From a virus, in the IMG/VR virus record IMGVR_UViG_3300028925_009652, positions 1 to 25,312 of that record: a stretch of 25,312 bases of DNA. One strand, given 5' to 3'. The notes beneath the pieces are model-generated. The model saw only the letters and a list, made by a program, of their open reading frames with translations. It was not told where the DNA came from and made no database searches. The first letter of the stretch is position 1. Each line of letters starts with the position of its first letter. This document shows positions 14,634 to 21,147 of this stretch, one piece after another. The translations under genes and the position numbers were made by a program.

Positions 14634-14945
14634 ATGACTGATTCTAAAACTGTAAACTATACTCCCGCAATGCTCGCAACTCTAAAAGCCGCGGCTCCCG
14701 TTGACTATGCAAAAGCTCAAGCGCTGGCAATTGAACTCGATAGAGGCGTGCGATCTATCATCGCAAAATGCAAACGTGAGGGCGTAGAATATATCTCTAA
14801 GCCCGCACCAGCAAAGAAAAAAGCCGCCCCATCTAAAGCGGATATGGTCGCGGCTATTTGCGCGGCAACTGGCGCGGATGATCTGACCGGACTCGAAAAA
14901 GCTACCGGTTCGGCTCTAAATAATCTTTTATCATCGCTTGCATAA
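14634..14945 (+). CDS. GcrA/Myb-like DNA-binding protein, paralogue 1
   Basis: A 103-residue protein. The N-terminal part (NYTPAMLATLKAAAPVDYAK, then ALELDRG-type helix) ends in DRGVRSIIAKCKREGVEY. This aligns with NKSTRSIVAKLVREGVYK at 18040-18354 and DKSTKSIIGKLSREGVYK at 19887-20210. The pattern (YTxE start, three short helices, RSIxxKxxREGV) resembles the helix-turn-helix head of GcrA-type regulators. A basic Ala/Pro/Lys linker (PAPAKKKAAPSK) leads to a small C-terminal helical domain (MVAAICAATGADDLTGL). It is more GC-rich than the two paralogues, so it probably came from a different source. A regulatory role is inference. Confidence 0.75.
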   Translation: MTDSKTVNYTPAMLATLKAAAPVDYAKAQALAIELDRGVRSIIAKCKREGVEYISKPAPAKKKAAPSKADMVAAICAATGADDLTGLEKATGSALNNLLSSLA

Positions 14946-16547: not shown

Positions 16548-16624
16548 GCTATATTTGTTGCAAAAATTGTAATCACGGACTACCCTGTTATTTTTACCCT
16601 AAGAAAAAGGAACAAACCAAATGA
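16544..16624 (+). CDS. 26-residue Cys-rich microprotein
   Basis: An ATGA overlap with the upstream gene marks the start, and another ATGA overlap at the end leads into the next gene. The product begins MSYICCKNCNHGLPCYFY and ends in a Lys-rich tail. Cys5, Cys6, Cys9, His11 and Cys15 could bind one zinc ion. The double coupling makes a real gene likely despite its size. Confidence 0.6.
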   Translation: MSYICCKNCNHGLPCYFYPKKKEQTK

Positions 16625-16746
16625 GCATTATACCTGAGACTGAGGCGGAACTGATTCGCCTCAAAACGCAAATGGAAGTTATCAGAACCATTTGCCCGCT
16701 TTTGGCAATTGTTTTACAGATAATTATTTTAACCCAAATCTTCTAG
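16621..16746 (+). CDS. 41-residue membrane microprotein
   Basis: It starts in an ATGA overlap with the Cys-rich microgene. A short amphipathic N-terminus (MSIIPETEAELIRLKTQMEV) is followed by one hydrophobic helix (CPLLAIVLQIIILTQIF). It is the last gene before a strong terminator. The start region is similar to that of 16329-16547. Confidence 0.6.
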   Translation: MSIIPETEAELIRLKTQMEVIRTICPLLAIVLQIIILTQIF

Positions 16747-16791
16747 CACAGGTAAATCAGGATAGCAAATTTATTTTTTCCTAGCACAAAG

Positions 16792-16821
16792 AATCTCAAA
16801 ATGCAAATTTTGGGATTTTTT
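16792..16821 (+). terminator. Rho-independent terminator closing the cassette
   Basis: AATCTCAAAAT-GCAA-ATTTTGGGATT is an 11-bp stem (one T-G pair) with a GCAA tetraloop of the stable GNRA type, followed directly by six T. Confidence 0.85.
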
Positions 16822-16839
16822 GCTATTTGCAGAAAAATA

Positions 16840-16864
16840 AAAATAAATGCAAAAAAAGCTTGAC
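16840..16864 (+). repeat. 25-bp direct repeat, right copy
   Basis: It matches 14419-14443 at 24 of 25 positions, ending in GCTTGAC. The -35-like TTGACT has no TATAAT at 16-18 bp, so the promoter seen in the left copy is not complete here. Confidence 0.8.
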
Positions 16865-17124
16865 TTTTGTTTTAAAATCGGCGCGGTCGCGCCAATACCA
16901 CACGACTAGCATATGCTAATGCGCCTCGAATACGAATAAAAATGCCCAAACAGGTTGCTATAGTCTATATTTTGGCGCGGGGGCGCCAGTAGTAAGTCAA
17001 CGACTTATTAAGCATGGGCCTCAAAAACGTGTGACCAATTAAGGAAAGTTAGTCATAGTCTATTTTCGGTGCGGAGGCGCCAGTAGTAGTGCGACGACGA
17101 TTTCCCGTCGGATGCTCAGCGCCG

Positions 17125-17153
17125 ATTATAGTGCAGTTGCGATGCGATGTCAA
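17125..17153 (-). promoter_or_regulatory. Leftward consensus promoter, array unit 4
   Basis: On the minus strand, TTGACA (17153-17148), 17 bp, then TATAAT (17130-17125), followed at once by CGGCGC. A GC-rich discriminator of this kind is known from stringently controlled promoters. No leftward gene follows, so its product would be a non-coding or antisense RNA. Confidence 0.75.
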
Positions 17154-17214
17154 GTCTTTTCTGTGACCCCGAGCAAATTCGGGCAAGTAAATGAAATTTC
17201 CTGCCAAGGCGCCG

Positions 17215-17243
17215 ATTATACAGTACTCCAGCGACGCTGTCAA
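17215..17243 (-). promoter_or_regulatory. Leftward consensus promoter, array unit 5
   Basis: On the minus strand, TTGACA (17243-17238), 17 bp, then TATAAT (17220-17215), again followed by CGGCGC. It is exactly 90 bp upstream of the matching promoter in unit 4, in the same direction. Confidence 0.75.
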
Positions 17244-17334
17244 GTACTATTTGGGAGCATGCGGCAAATTCGGGCAAATAAAGGAAGTCTCGTGATAACC
17301 GTAGCGGGTGTGGGGAGATTGGGGCAGTGGCGAT

Positions 17335-17364
17335 ATAATTTTAGATAATTTTAGATGATTTGGC
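17335..17364. repeat. A/T-rich 10-bp direct repeats (ATAATTTTAG)
   Basis: ATAATTTTAG occurs twice in tandem (17335-17344, 17345-17354), followed by the related ATGATTTGGC. Phased A/T-rich short repeats next to an array of larger repeats are typical of DNA-unwinding elements. An origin role is inference. Confidence 0.6.
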
Positions 17365-17442
17365 AAATAAATCTTGACTCGGTGGCTCGTTCGGCCCCCC
17401 GGAATTAAAGTGCGTTTGCTTACCTTCTTTTTCCGAAAGTTG

Positions 17443-17471
17443 TTGACAACCCCCTTGTACGGGCGTATAAT
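17443..17471 (+). promoter_or_regulatory. Consensus promoter of the 17.5 kb duplicated genes
   Basis: TTGACA (17443-17448), 17 bp, TATAAT (17466-17471). The extended -10 GTATAATAC is a 9-bp palindrome shared with the promoters at 17964 and 19393. Here the dyad is nearly 15 bp (GCGTATAATACACGC). Confidence 0.88.
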
Positions 17472-17498
17472 ACACGCATAAACCAAGAAAACAACAGA

Positions 17499-17974
17499 AT
17501 TGAGGAAATACCATTATGAAAGCTCCAATAGCAATGTTTGACATAGCAGAAGGCGGATTTACTTTTTACAACAAAGAACAGTGGGCTGTAGCTTTAGCAG
17601 AGTGGCGTAAAGAACTAAGAGCTGATGGCCTTGATGTGGACTACTTTAACGAATACGATCTAGTAGAGACAATGTTTGGTGACGAGGTATTTATCGAAGA
17701 GATTCCACAAAACATAGTTTAATTCTTGACAGATTGAGGAAATACCATGATGAAAGATCCAATAGACATAGCAGACAGTGAATTTACTTTTTACAACGAA
17801 GAGCAGTGGACTGTAGCTTTAGCAGAGTGGCGTGCAGAACTAAAAGAGTATGGTGATTCCGTAAACCACTGGGACGACTACGATATAGTAAAGATGGTCT
17901 GGGGTGAAGGGGTATTTATTATGAAAACAATGCAACGAGATTCCACAAACCATATTTTAATTCTTGACAGATTG
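17499..17974 (+). repeat. Tandem duplication (unit about 234-238 bp)
   Basis: Unit 1 begins near 17499 (ATTGAGGAAATACCAT) and unit 2 near 17733, each with one gene and ending in TTCTTGACAGATTG (to 17736 and 17974). CAGAATTG and CAGATTG at the ends give the microhomology expected at a duplication junction. The -35 in unit 1 (17726-17731) was left without a -10, while that in unit 2 still drives a promoter. Confidence 0.8.
17516..17722 (+). CDS. Small acidic protein, tandem copy 1
   Basis: A 68-residue protein. The core FTFYNKEQWAVALAEWRKEL is repeated nearly unchanged in the next gene (FTFYNEEQWTVALAEWRAEL). It continues with DYFNEYDLVETMFGDEVFI and ends EEIPQNIV. GAGG lies 10 nt before the ATG, as in copy 2. 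It is acidic and probably helical in the middle. No family is recognised. It is the first gene after a strong promoter, which suggests an early or high-level product. Confidence 0.75.
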   Translation: MKAPIAMFDIAEGGFTFYNKEQWAVALAEWRKELRADGLDVDYFNEYDLVETMFGDEVFIEEIPQNIV

Positions 17975-18039: not shown

Positions 18040-18354
18040 ATGACAGAAGTATCAAAGAACTACACAGAAGAGATGGTTGACGCTATGGTTGCAGACTACC
18101 AAGACAACCCAACCCAAGAAACAGTTGCAGCTCTATCAGAAGAGTTCAACAAAAGCACAAGATCTATCGTTGCTAAGCTAGTGCGCGAAGGTGTCTACAA
18201 AGCTCCAAGCAAGGCTGTAAAAGCTAAGGTTGCAGTTGTTCGTAAGGCAGACCTCGTAGCCACTATCAACGAAGCACTTGGTGTAGAGCTTGATACTCTC
18301 AGCAAAGCATCTAAAGCTGACTTGGAAGTGCTAGTAGCGGCAATTGCTAAGTAA
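18040..18354 (+). CDS. GcrA/Myb-like DNA-binding protein, paralogue 2
   Basis: A 104-residue protein. NYTEEMVDAMVADYQDNP opens the domain, followed by TVAALSEEFNKSTRSIVAKL and VREGVYKAPS; three short helices of the GcrA/Myb helix-turn-helix type can be drawn. A basic linker (KAVKAKVAVVRKADL) and a C-terminal helical pair (LGVELDTLSKASKADLEVLV) match the layout of paralogues 1 and 3. GGGAG lies about 8 nt before the ATG. First gene after its own consensus promoter. DNA binding and regulation are inferred from the pattern. Confidence 0.78.
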   Translation: MTEVSKNYTEEMVDAMVADYQDNPTQETVAALSEEFNKSTRSIVAKLVREGVYKAPSKAVKAKVAVVRKADLVATINEALGVELDTLSKASKADLEVLVAAIAK

Positions 18355-18710: not shown

Positions 18711-18937
18711 ATATGCGAGTAACAGAAATACATGGCTATACTGTGGAAGCTGAGAGCATGGAAGCTGCAGTAGCTAGGCTCTATGAGGAAGATCCAAAGC
18801 CTGATTATATTGCTACAGAGAGCTGGGAAGTAGAGCAGATCGACGAGATGATGACAGACAAAGATTACTATGATGGTAGAAAGGAATTTATTGAGAGCCA
18901 TGAAAAAATAGTTCTTGACGAGATGGTTAAAAGTTAG
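18692..18937 (+). CDS. Small protein, possibly DpnD/PcfM-like
   Basis: An 81-residue acidic protein. MPRFRIDMRVTEIHGYTVEA followed by ESMEAAVARLYEEDPK gives a strand-strand-helix pattern. This recalls the short DpnD/PcfM-type domain, in which a strand ending in VEA is followed by a helix rich in EEA. The assignment is tentative. The last codons (IVLDEMVKS) contain the -35 of the following promoter. Confidence 0.6.
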   Translation: MPRFRIDMRVTEIHGYTVEAESMEAAVARLYEEDPKPDYIATESWEVEQIDEMMTDKDYYDGRKEFIESHEKIVLDEMVKS

Positions 18938-18943
18938 TATAAT
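18915..18943 (+). promoter_or_regulatory. Promoter of the structured RNA
   Basis: TTGACG (18915-18920), 17 bp, TATAAT (18938-18943), preceded by AAAAAATAGTTC. The expected start is near 18950. The next supportable gene begins only at 19452, beyond a terminator. Confidence 0.82.
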
Positions 18944-18949
18944 ATCATT

Positions 18950-19304
18950 TCAAAGAGAGAAAAACCAGTATAGATGCTTGATTGATAAGCTACATTGCAA
19001 CCCACCTGATACAGGAACGAGCGTCTAACTCGTGTGTAATGTAGTTTTAATATCGCGGGAATGCTGGTACTGCCTACCTCTACTGAGGCAGTATAAAGTG
19101 TATGGCGTAGAGGGGCTTACATAGTTGTGCCGAACAACGTGGGTTTGTCTTATGTAGGTATTATGTTATCCCATTCCTAAAAATCATAGCCGAGGTGCTG
19201 GATTGTAGTCCAGTTGATTGTATAGCGAGGCGGTCTATCTTTCACCCTAATTCTGAATCAGTCATTCTGAATCCTTTATGCCTCCTTCTCGGGGGCATCT
19301 TTTT
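18950..19304 (+). ncRNA. Structured non-coding RNA candidate, about 355 nt
   Basis: Bounded by a consensus promoter and a rho-independent terminator, with no supportable gene. Perfect helices found by eye: GCTT/AAGC (18976-18979 with 18987-18990); CTACATT/AATGTAG (18990-18996 with 19038-19044), enclosing hairpins CCTG-ATA-CAGG and ACGAG/CTCGT; TACTGCCT/AGGCAGTA (19068-19075 with 19086-19093). The loop of the last holds CCTCTAC, which pairs with GTAGAGG at 19107-19113, an H-type pseudoknot. Further stems are CTTACATA/TATGTAGG (19116-19123 with 19151-19158) around GTTGT/ACAAC; GGGAATG/CATTCCT (19057-19063 with 19172-19178) enclosing the preceding elements; and CTGGA/TCCAG (19198-19213). No match to tmRNA, RNase P, 6S or group I introns was recognised. 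Novel class or unknown member. Confidence 0.75.
19278..19304 (+). terminator. Terminator of the structured RNA
   Basis: ATGCCTCC-TTCTC-GGGGGCAT is an 8-bp stem with one T-G pair, followed by C and five T. Confidence 0.85.
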
Positions 19305-19311
19305 GTCTGAA

Positions 19312-19361
19312 GTATACATATATGTTGACTATTTTTAATAATTGTATACATATATGTTGAC
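19312..19361 (+). repeat. Two 18-bp direct repeats (operator candidates)
   Basis: GTATACATATATGTTGAC occurs perfectly at 19312-19329 and 19344-19361, 32 bp apart (about three helical turns, same face). It contains the palindrome GTATAC. The pair lies just upstream of the -35 at 19393, in the usual place for activator or repressor sites. Confidence 0.75.
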
Positions 19362-19392
19362 AATCTTTTTTCAGCACCTCCTTAAAAAATTC

Positions 19393-19421
19393 TTGACAAT
19401 TTGTCCAAACCTCCGTATAAT
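19393..19421 (+). promoter_or_regulatory. Consensus promoter of the 19.4-20.5 kb operon
   Basis: TTGACA (19393-19398), 17 bp, TATAAT (19416-19421) inside GTATAATAC, with AAAAAATTC upstream of the -35. Confidence 0.88.
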
Positions 19422-19451: not shown

Positions 19452-19760
19452 ATGAGCAAGGTATTAGAATTTCCCACTATAAAAGTAGTCAGTGAGATTA
19501 TGAAAGATGAACTGCTTTTGAGTATGCAATCCCTCGAAGAAAACTATCAACTGCTCGACCAACTACATCAAGGACTCCATGTAATGGAAGAGGCTACCTC
19601 TAAACATGAGGAGGCGTATAACGCAATGGTAAGTGAGTATATAGACCTAGTAGGTATTGAGAATGTTCAAGTAGACATCTTAGAGTATAGTACAGCGGCT
19701 CTCGTAGAGATTGATGGAGACGGACATAAAGTAACAGACACTAGGAGTGACGACGAGTGA
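19452..19760 (+). CDS. Small acidic coiled-coil protein, unknown function
   Basis: A 102-residue protein. A short N-terminal segment (MSKVLEFPTIKVVSEIM) is followed by long helices with heptad character (LLLSMQSLEENYQLLDQLHQ, VMEEATSKHEEAYNAMV) and an acidic tail (VTDTRSDDE). AGGAG lies 6-7 nt before the ATG. It is the first gene of an operon with a strong promoter and operator-like repeats. No family is recognised. Confidence 0.75.
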   Translation: MSKVLEFPTIKVVSEIMKDELLLSMQSLEENYQLLDQLHQGLHVMEEATSKHEEAYNAMVSEYIDLVGIENVQVDILEYSTAALVEIDGDGHKVTDTRSDDE

Positions 19761-19894
19761 AATTAAAAGATGATGTACTAGAAAGATTTGAGAAAGGCGA
19801 GACAATATATGATATTGCAGAAGACTACAACGTAACTGCGCAAGCAGTATTAGAATTACTAGGATTAGATGAGAACCCGTGGCACTATGATTAA
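19757..19894 (+). CDS. 45-residue helix-turn-helix microprotein (GTG start)
   Basis: The GTG start overlaps the stop of the preceding gene (GTGA). The product has a helix-turn-helix-like core, FEKGETIYDIAEDYNVTAQA followed by VLELLGL, ending DENPWHYD. The YDIAxxYNV pattern is typical of small DNA-binding heads. It overlaps the start of paralogue 3. A regulatory role is inference. Confidence 0.6.
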   Translation: MKLKDDVLERFEKGETIYDIAEDYNVTAQAVLELLGLDENPWHYD

Positions 19895-20210
19895 CTATAC
19901 AGAAGAACAAACAAGACTAATGGTGTACTGTTATGTAACTAAACCTACACCCGAAACAGTACAGGAATTAGCACTAGAGTTTGATAAGAGTACTAAGTCC
20001 ATAATTGGCAAACTATCAAGAGAAGGAGTATACAAACGTGCAGTTTATACGAACAAAAGTGGTGATGCCCCTGTCACGAAAGTGGAGTTGGTTACTAACA
20101 TCGCTGAGAATCTGGGGCTTGAAGTTGAGGATATACTTGGTATCGTTAAAAGTCCGAAGGCTGCTCTCCAAGCGTTGGAACGAGCCACGGGGACAGAACG
20201 AGAAGGATAA
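19887..20210 (+). CDS. GcrA/Myb-like DNA-binding protein, paralogue 3
   Basis: Homology with paralogues 1 and 2 (MINYTEEQ against NYTEEMVD) supports the ATG at 19887, giving 107 residues. An in-frame ATG at 19869 would add six and has AGGA 4 nt upstream. The core TVQELALEFDKSTKSIIGKL plus SREGVYK matches the family. A middle part (KSGDAPVTKVELVTNIAENL) and a C-terminal helical pair follow. The start overlaps the 45-residue gene, so translation is probably coupled. Confidence 0.75.
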   Translation: MINYTEEQTRLMVYCYVTKPTPETVQELALEFDKSTKSIIGKLSREGVYKRAVYTNKSGDAPVTKVELVTNIAENLGLEVEDILGIVKSPKAALQALERATGTEREG

Positions 20211-20383: not shown

Positions 20384-20385
20384 TT

Positions 20386-20466
20386 ATGAGTGAGAATGAT
20401 TTTTGGGTTGTATTTGCACTTCTAACAGTAGTTTGTTTTCTATTAGATAGTTGTGGAATGATGTAG
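20386..20466 (+). CDS. 26-residue membrane microprotein
   Basis: TGAGG lies 5 nt before the ATG, which itself follows the preceding stop by two bases. The product is MSENDFWVVFALLTVVCFLL followed by DSCGMM, a single membrane helix. It is the last gene before a strong terminator. Confidence 0.5.
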   Translation: MSENDFWVVFALLTVVCFLLDSCGMM

Positions 20467-20487
20467 CTGCGGGGATAATGCGACAAT

Positions 20488-20519
20488 AACTCTGGTCTAG
20501 AAATAGGCTGGAGTTTTTT
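20488..20519 (+). terminator. Rho-independent terminator of the rightward operon
   Basis: AACTCTGGTCTA-GAAA-TAGGCTGGAGTT gives a 12-bp stem (three G-T pairs) with a GAAA tetraloop, then a run of T (20514-20519). Confidence 0.85.
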
Positions 20520-21098
20520 ATCGACTAAAGAAAGTGAGGACAAGTTGTAGTTCTGCTAGTGAAAGCACATACAATTGTCATAAATTGAGGGAAAGGAATA
20601 CGGGTCAGAACGACCATAAGCGAATCGGACACAATTTGGCTCTTAGAGCAACCGGAACAAATATTAGAGTTATAGCAATTTGATGATTACAGGTCTCTTA
20701 GACCCGTTGTTATTACTCGTTAGTAATGTTTGGTTATCGTTGTCATCAACAATTGATCATAGATCTCGTAGTTAAAACACAGTATATGTATAGATTCAGA
20801 TAAGTCAGTTAAATATAGAGATAACACAATACCAACCCCCTTCCACTTTGTTACAGGGGTTTCTTGTAACGTCATCTCAATTCAAACGATTATCTTTTAG
20901 AAGAGAAGAAGTATTGTTTTGATCTTGTTGTTGATCATAGTCATTAAATTATGGTTTATTATATCACACAATTTAAGATCTGTAAAGGTCTATTTTTTGC
21001 CCACCTCCCTTATCTTATAATGCTTTCAAAAAGTAGGGAATGATAGTTGGGAATTATAATTTATTTTTCTAGCCTCACATCAGGATTGTCAAGGGCGT
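20520..21098. other. Non-coding convergent intergenic region with many hairpins
   Basis: No supportable gene in about 580 bp. It holds short dyads: GGTC-AGAAC-GACC; GCTC-TTA-GAGC inside CGG/CCG; GGTCT-CTT-AGACC; and ATTACT-CGTT-AGTAAT. ACAATAC (20826-20832) can pair with GTATTGT (20911-20917) around a possible pseudoknot (CCCCT 20837-20841 with AGGGG 20855-20859; GTTAC 20850-20854 with GTAAC 20866-20870). A direct repeat TTGATCATAG occurs at 20753 and 20931, and AGATC/GGTCT precedes a T-run near 20990. No clear promoter was found. Confidence 0.5.
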
Positions 21099-21142
21099 AA
21101 AAAAGCCCCCAAGGTTGCGCTTTGTGTAGAGGCGTGAGGGCT
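21099..21142 (-). terminator. Terminator of the leftward 25-21 kb operon
   Basis: On the minus strand, AGCCC pairs with GGGCT around an inner CGC/GCG stem, followed by six T. It lies just after the last leftward gene. The loop is long, so the confidence is lower than for the other terminators. Confidence 0.6.
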
Positions 21143-21147
21143 ATGTT

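Follow-up and report, generated by a model that had tools for sequence, protein, structure and literature searches.

A promoter and a terminator enclosing no gene

What does a phage encode in some 355 nucleotides that lie between a promoter and a terminator and hold no gene? This question is raised by a locus in a 25.3-kb fragment from an uncultured phage, deposited as a virus record (IMG/VR IMGVR_UViG_3300028925_009652). The whole stretch, of 25,312 nucleotides, is referred to here as the window. The terminase encoded in the window is closest to those of T5-like phages of Pectobacterium, Serratia, Vibrio and others (about 49-50% identity). The head protein is likewise nearest to T5-like phages. 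Note that the locus sits amid small plus-strand genes, and that all parts of the RNA unit, together with its two neighbouring genes, are on the plus strand.

The original prediction was of a structured non-coding RNA bounded by a consensus promoter and a rho-independent terminator. Both signals are present. The promoter, at positions 18915-18943, is of the sigma70 type (TTGACG-17-TATAAT) and matches 11 of 12 consensus bases. The terminator, at 19278-19304, consists of positions 19278-19298 plus a T-run. These signals, and the homologues described below, delimit a proposed transcript of about 355 nt (18950-19304), for which there are no RNA data. The absence of a gene was also borne out: stops occur in nearly all frames of all 14 cores in the family, and no frame is conserved. 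The fixed upstream neighbour is D5-like gene 1 (18040-18354), recognized by synteny and by a weak match (E 1.9e-5) to the D5-like regulators of PHROG. The fixed downstream neighbour, placed by synteny, is a coiled-coil-like gene (19452-19760). This next gene has a separate promoter, a perfect match to the consensus, at 19393-19421 (supported by sequence and synteny). Judged by sequence, 18950-19304 is a discrete transcription unit. Expression data are lacking and a stable transcript of about 355 nt during infection is inferred.

ARAGORN detected no tRNA or tmRNA in the window. The folding energy of 18950-19304, taken as a single sequence, is not significant (z = -1.8, with 7 of 100 shuffles equally good). 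The case for an RNA rests on homologues; folding energy alone would not reveal the structure.

Other features of the window are recorded here as separate observations. Two 25-nt copies of GTATACATATATGTTGACNATNTTT, 32 nt apart and operator-like, occupy 19312-19368, between the terminator and the next promoter. Three paralogous small genes with D5-like DNA-binding resemblance flank the RNA locus (14634-14945, 18040-18354 and 19869-20210). The region 16620-17500 is gene-poor and carries imperfect direct repeats with a spacing of approximately 91-95 nt (35 nt at 16970/17064 and 31 nt at 17173/17264, with GCGCCGATTATA repeated); similar non-coding stretches are found in relatives. Finally, about 760 bp between converging gene sets (20384-21147) have no convincing gene, and the corresponding intervals of relatives cluster as similar non-coding DNA.

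Homologues of the RNA in uncultured phages

Proteins encoded next to the locus led to two related contigs, whose intergenic DNA revealed a conserved core. Further homologues came from short core patterns, two protein-family scans and then profile searches. Most matches of the short core patterns were rejected as chance. We identified 13 distinct homologues, all in uncultured phage contigs (L021, L010, L022, L044, L220, which is the same as L051, L056, L058, L060, L062, L221, L223, L225 and L227). With the window, the family has at least 14 members. Note that these are from related phages, none of which is cultured, and that every contig is a fragment.

The transcription signals are shared. Upstream DNA is available for 12 homologues (the L062 sequence is truncated), and in all 12 a TTGAC-N17-TATAAT promoter precedes the core. 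After the core, every homologue has a terminator-like T-run. Separate promoters for the RNA and the next gene occur in the window and in the nine homologues with a complete interval. Across the family, the RNA would be about 280-560 nt long.

Searches outside the family returned little. Among 50,697 named phage records, no homologue was found by DNA similarity. Similarity to cultured phages was limited to terminator- or promoter-like scraps, and L220, L225 and the 5' modules had none. Two D5-like proteins were compared with the same 50,697 records, again without a match. A gapped DNA pattern gave at least 118 matches in genome contigs, which were chance-like, and model R1 gave none at E < 0.6 in the 20 of these loci that were searched. 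Model R1 also had no match in 274 genomes of the class to which the L106 genome belongs, with strict filters and no positive control among them.

Two of the checks suggested by the original prediction, an Rfam search and a covariance model built from homologous phage regions, were done. Rfam 15 (4227 families) gave no match to the window at any meaningful score. At the Rfam gathering threshold, the window and 22 related loci had matches to tRNA and tmRNA families alone, all of them outside the core. Six member loci searched at E ≤ 2 yielded a tRNA only. Built without the divergent member L225, the covariance model finds L225 at the proper place (48.5 bits, E 4e-8) and, across 94 loci of these phages, detects no locus outside the family. 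Nothing below E 0.6 was found in 81 control loci. On a literature check of open-access full text only, this appears to be a new RNA family of uncultured, T5-related phages.

Covariation in a pseudoknotted core

The putative RNA has a conserved 3' core, made of an H-type pseudoknot and helices P3, P4 and P5, and an exchangeable 5' domain. The order in the window, from 5' to 3', is the 5' domain with an insert, pseudoknot stems S1 and S2, P3, P4, P5, P6 and the terminator.

For a structure test, 13 cores were aligned by sequence only (alignment A6) and compared with a named structure that included the pseudoknot. In this alignment, 88.4% of cells are paired. When partners are slid by 1-3 columns, the value is 38-47%. 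Both-side changes occur in 16 of 26 pairs, compared with 5-8 in the slid controls, and the number of cells with both-side changes is 56, compared with 7-15. None of 500 shuffles reached any of five covariation measures. Because related sequences make the shuffle control lenient, we give more weight to the slide control and to the arm permutation test described below.

The 8-bp stem, the H-type pseudoknot and two further helices covary across the 13 cores. Stem S1 pairs 19069-19075 with 19086-19092, and reaches 8 bp with 19068/19093; its strands in the window are TACTGCCT/AGGCAGTA. It is paired in 97.8% of cells, with 4 pairs changed on both sides, which strongly supports the stem originally proposed from the single sequence. 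The loop of S1 was said to pair over 7 bp with GTAGAGG downstream, and here too the homologues agree. Stem S2 pairs 19077-19083 (CCTCTAC) with 19107-19113 (GTAGAGG), and 5 of its 7 pairs have changes on both sides. In a permutation test, the loop of each member was paired with its own downstream strand and with that of every other member. Mean pairing was -10.1 kcal/mol for cognate arms versus -6.9 kcal/mol for non-cognate arms, and none of 20,000 permutations was as good. The arms are CCUCUAC/GUAGAGG in the window, CCUCUAU/AUAGAGG in L010, CCUAACA/UGUUAGG in L060, CCUACUC/GAGUAGG in L225 and CCCCAAG/CUUGGGG in L058. The weakest S2 is that of L056, with about 4 clear pairs. A conserved joining strand, ATAAAGNGTATGGC (AUAAAGNGUAUGGC as RNA), seen in the alignments at 19093-19106, crosses S1.

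Two further helices follow, each supported by covariation. Hairpin P3 (19124-19138) has the loop GCCGA, or RCCGA in many members; 88% of its cells are paired and 3 pairs changed on both sides. Helix P4 (19157-19191) pairs 19161-19165 with 19185-19189, and the GG at 19157-19158 with the CC at 19190-19191; 78% of cells are paired and 4 pairs changed on both sides. Wobble pairs are frequent, with U-G in S1, S2 and P4, as expected if the conserved molecule is RNA rather than DNA.

We conclude, from comparison of the aligned cores, that the core is under active selection. Two of the outcomes that would have counted against the prediction, stems broken without compensating changes and a conserved reading frame, are both absent. 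Hence, with close to full confidence, we assign 18950-19304 to a structured RNA.

An exchangeable 5' domain and additional 3' hairpins

The 5' domain (18965-19067) is closed by helix P1, CCAGTAT/ATGCTGG, which pairs 18965-18971 with 19061-19067. Inner pairs are formed by 18975-18977/19055-19057 and 18980-18982/19052-19054, and ATGCTTGA...ATCGCGG is conserved within the domain. In an alignment of eight sequences (A9), 100% of cells are paired and 3 pairs changed on both sides. The domain is absent or replaced in L010, L022, L058, L225 and L223. Replacements are a simple hairpin in L010, L022 and L225, and a tRNA in L058.

Two elements originally drawn in this part of the RNA survive only partly. 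The three-way element with CTACATT/AATGTAG is present in the sequence of the window, where a stem (18987-18999/19035-19047) encloses two inner hairpins. However, it is a variable insert (18987-19047), common only to the nearest relative, L021, with some mismatches. An enclosing GGGAATG/CATTCCT stem can be drawn but overlaps the better-supported P1. A shorter version of that stem, joining the 5' domain to the P4 loop at the same two sites, gave a permutation p of about 0.009 in one uncorrected test. Comparative support for this pairing is weak.

Hairpins P5 and P6 were judged, in the group that includes the window, by folding each sequence, since the first MAFFT alignment of both was unusable. 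P5 (19197-19214) folds in the members examined. Its version in a more distant subgroup covaries, with 100% of cells paired and 4 pairs changed on both sides. P6 (19222-19238) is an ATAG/CTAT hairpin with the conserved loop CGAGGCGGT, and is found only in members closer to the window. In L056 the stem is AGAG/CTCT; by inspection of the sequences, without a formal test, this is a compensatory change. Unconstrained folding favours another register of P6 in some members.

tRNA and tmRNA genes in the same interval

In relatives with a complete interval, the gene order is D5-like gene 1, the RNA unit, the coiled-coil-like gene and, usually, D5-like gene 2. We considered the coiled-coil protein as a dedicated partner of the RNA and rejected this, since its gene also occurs where the RNA is absent. 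Hence, no protein partner is indicated.

Some members carry a tRNA in the same transcription unit as the core. L044 and L221 each have a tRNA-Met on the 3' side of the core, and L058 has a tRNA-Gly on the 5' side. The other 11 of the 14 members, including the window, have no intact tRNA in the unit. L021 contains what reads like a decayed tRNA, for which ARAGORN makes no call. In more distant relatives, the same interval contains a permuted tmRNA (L069 and L276), a tRNA-Cys (L073) or a tRNA-Met (L238). The tmRNA genes, at L069:1873-2241 and L276:3287-3670, match Rfam RF04321 at 108 and 95 bits, and their tags are GNDDIYDIAA and ANDDVYSLAA, respectively. The intervening segment of the L069 tmRNA contains a 60-nt hairpin (L069:1971-2030) that is also present, at about 90% identity, in the 5' region of the new RNA in L056 (2450-2509) and L221 (3787-3845). 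Hence, pieces seem to move between these RNAs, and the hairpin is possibly a mobile or processing element.

Several further non-coding stretches were noted at these loci. A promoter-to-terminator unit at L073:2575-2957, and in L074 and L075, looks like an unrelated structured non-coding RNA. Others of this appearance, with the shared motif GATAAGGCAGTAAAGATYTCGGTAAAAG, occur in L064, L257, L278 and L069 (near 2490-2550). In more distant phages (L229-L296), mutually similar non-coding stretches of 0.3-1.3 kb lie just 3' of the D5-like gene; 109 intervals form one cluster, and Rfam was near-empty in 20 such loci. Separately, a gene at L051:5188-5628, on a phage contig, was identified by eye as coding for an IscU/NifU-like iron-sulphur scaffold, and has a segment duplicated within it.

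Comparison with known phage RNAs

The original prediction likened the RNA to the large ornate RNAs of phages and recognized no known member. The analogy is strengthened by the tRNAs in three of the units and by the layout. GOLLD and ROOL come from phages, where they are often encoded close to tRNA islands. Both assemble into RNA-only cages of open function; GOLLD has a conserved 3' part, a variable 5' part and, sometimes, tRNAs in a linker (PMC12286853). The new RNA shares that layout, with a 3' domain that is conserved, a 5' domain that varies and a tRNA within or beside the unit, and the likeness goes no further than layout. Like GOLLD, it is phage-encoded, large, structured and pseudoknotted, with tRNAs close by or inside (PMC12286853). 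However, GOLLD is often over 800 nt and has a different core, and the phages of the new RNA are T5-related. The GOLLD model (RF02032) had no match at E ≤ 10 in 10 RNA-carrying contigs. ROOL is also phage-encoded, often near tRNA islands, with several pseudoknots (PMC12286853), whereas the new RNA is shorter and unmatched by the ROOL model (RF03087). Note that the positive control for ROOL was silent. This negative is consequently weaker than that for GOLLD, and full Rfam scans agree with it.

The permuted tmRNA (RF04321) occupies the same place in L069 and L276 and has one hairpin module in common with the new RNA. It differs in that the new RNA has no tRNA-like domain, tag frame or score; the window gave no ARAGORN or Rfam tmRNA call, in keeping with the earlier reading that marks of tmRNA are missing. 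In vibriophage ICP1, the most abundant transcript is an unassigned non-coding RNA of approximately 800 nt from a gene-free gap (PMC7567579). Its standing is similar to that of the new RNA; the phage and the size are different. Since it fails both sequence-structure tests, we do not assign the RNA to GOLLD or ROOL. These comparisons place it in a new family of its own, within a kind already known: it resembles GOLLD and ROOL in context and belongs to neither.

What the RNA might do

The sequence features of a structured trans-acting non-coding RNA are found: covarying helices, its own promoter and terminator, and no conserved frame. Because the terminator and a new promoter separate the RNA from the next gene, we infer that it very probably acts in trans. 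The rigid core would be the working part or a scaffold. The inference of which we are least certain is that the function of the RNA is akin to those of the genes that neighbour or replace it, and concerns the translation machinery of the infected cell or its tRNA pool. The RNA would bind some component of translation or keep it sequestered, or else travel with tRNA and protect it, a role that has been proposed for GOLLD. The translation link is suggested because tRNA and tmRNA genes share the locus with the RNA or replace it. Since no RNA of known function matches, context is the sole basis for the mechanism, and we regard the link as tentative, not shown. Two results weigh against it: tRNAs are present in only 3 of 14 units, and pairing to the anti-Shine-Dalgarno sequence was not in excess. 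Taken as a whole, a stand-alone, trans-acting structured RNA connected to translation or tRNA is our best explanation, held with a little less than even confidence.

The main rival, which we think rather unlikely, is a decoy or inhibitor. Here, a rigid pseudoknot core would act as a mimic of some host RNA, titrating a nuclease, an RNA-binding protein or a defence sensor of the host. A compact conserved core with an exchangeable periphery would suit this role, and host attack on tRNAs could, in the same way, be countered by the tRNAs and tmRNA found at this locus. However, Rfam revealed no likeness to a known host RNA, and no defence target has been identified.

Alternatively, the RNA could be a tRNA or tmRNA remnant or precursor, whose structure is either a scaffold on which embedded tRNAs are processed or what is left of a tmRNA after decay. 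The tRNAs within three units, the tRNA-like remnant read in L021 and the hairpin shared with a tmRNA are consistent with this. Against this, the core is better conserved than the presence of any tRNA, most units having none intact, and has neither a tmRNA nor a tRNA score; its strong covariation shows active selection. We consider this explanation distinctly improbable.

Two regulatory roles have very little in their favour, and we give them equal, slight weight. An antisense regulator, base pairing with phage or host mRNAs, would be expected to be an independent phage unit of sRNA size with a terminator, as here. Yet, in a test confined to the 5' regions of 44 window genes, leaving out other phage genes and the mRNAs of the host, no region had better complementarity than chance allows across that many comparisons (best z -2.1), and structure, rather than any long unpaired seed, is what has been conserved. 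A cis-acting leader or attenuator, akin to a riboswitch, would control the coiled-coil gene, which lies downstream in the same orientation in members with a known interval. However, the terminator and a separate, near-perfect promoter intervene in the window and homologues, and that gene occurs without the RNA. Least credible of all is a DNA-level element (an origin, packaging or recombination site) transcribed incidentally, since its one support, a conserved position between fixed genes, is set against common pair changes through G-U, conserved orientation of promoter and terminator, and a pseudoknot that fits single-stranded RNA.

For a trans-acting RNA linked to translation, one more specific proposal can be made, which we consider speculative and probably wrong in at least some part. 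The interval between the D5-like and coiled-coil genes may be, in a large group of uncultured phages, an 'RNA cargo' site, where tRNAs, permuted tmRNA, the new RNA and unrelated structured RNAs interchange. The RNA would be a functional stand-in in translation control, possibly as an oligomeric, tRNA-holding assembly like GOLLD or ROOL, with a much smaller core.

Significance

Large structured phage RNAs are few; they can rank with the most abundant transcripts of a phage, and there is no consensus on what they do. The alignment described here is sufficient to found an Rfam-type family. As a compact new family, with a core of 130 nt, it would be a tractable model for such RNAs. The locus, which in relatives holds tRNA or tmRNA genes, offers a concrete link, open to testing, between RNAs of this kind and translation. 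The RNA may help the virus to manage the protein-making machinery of its host.
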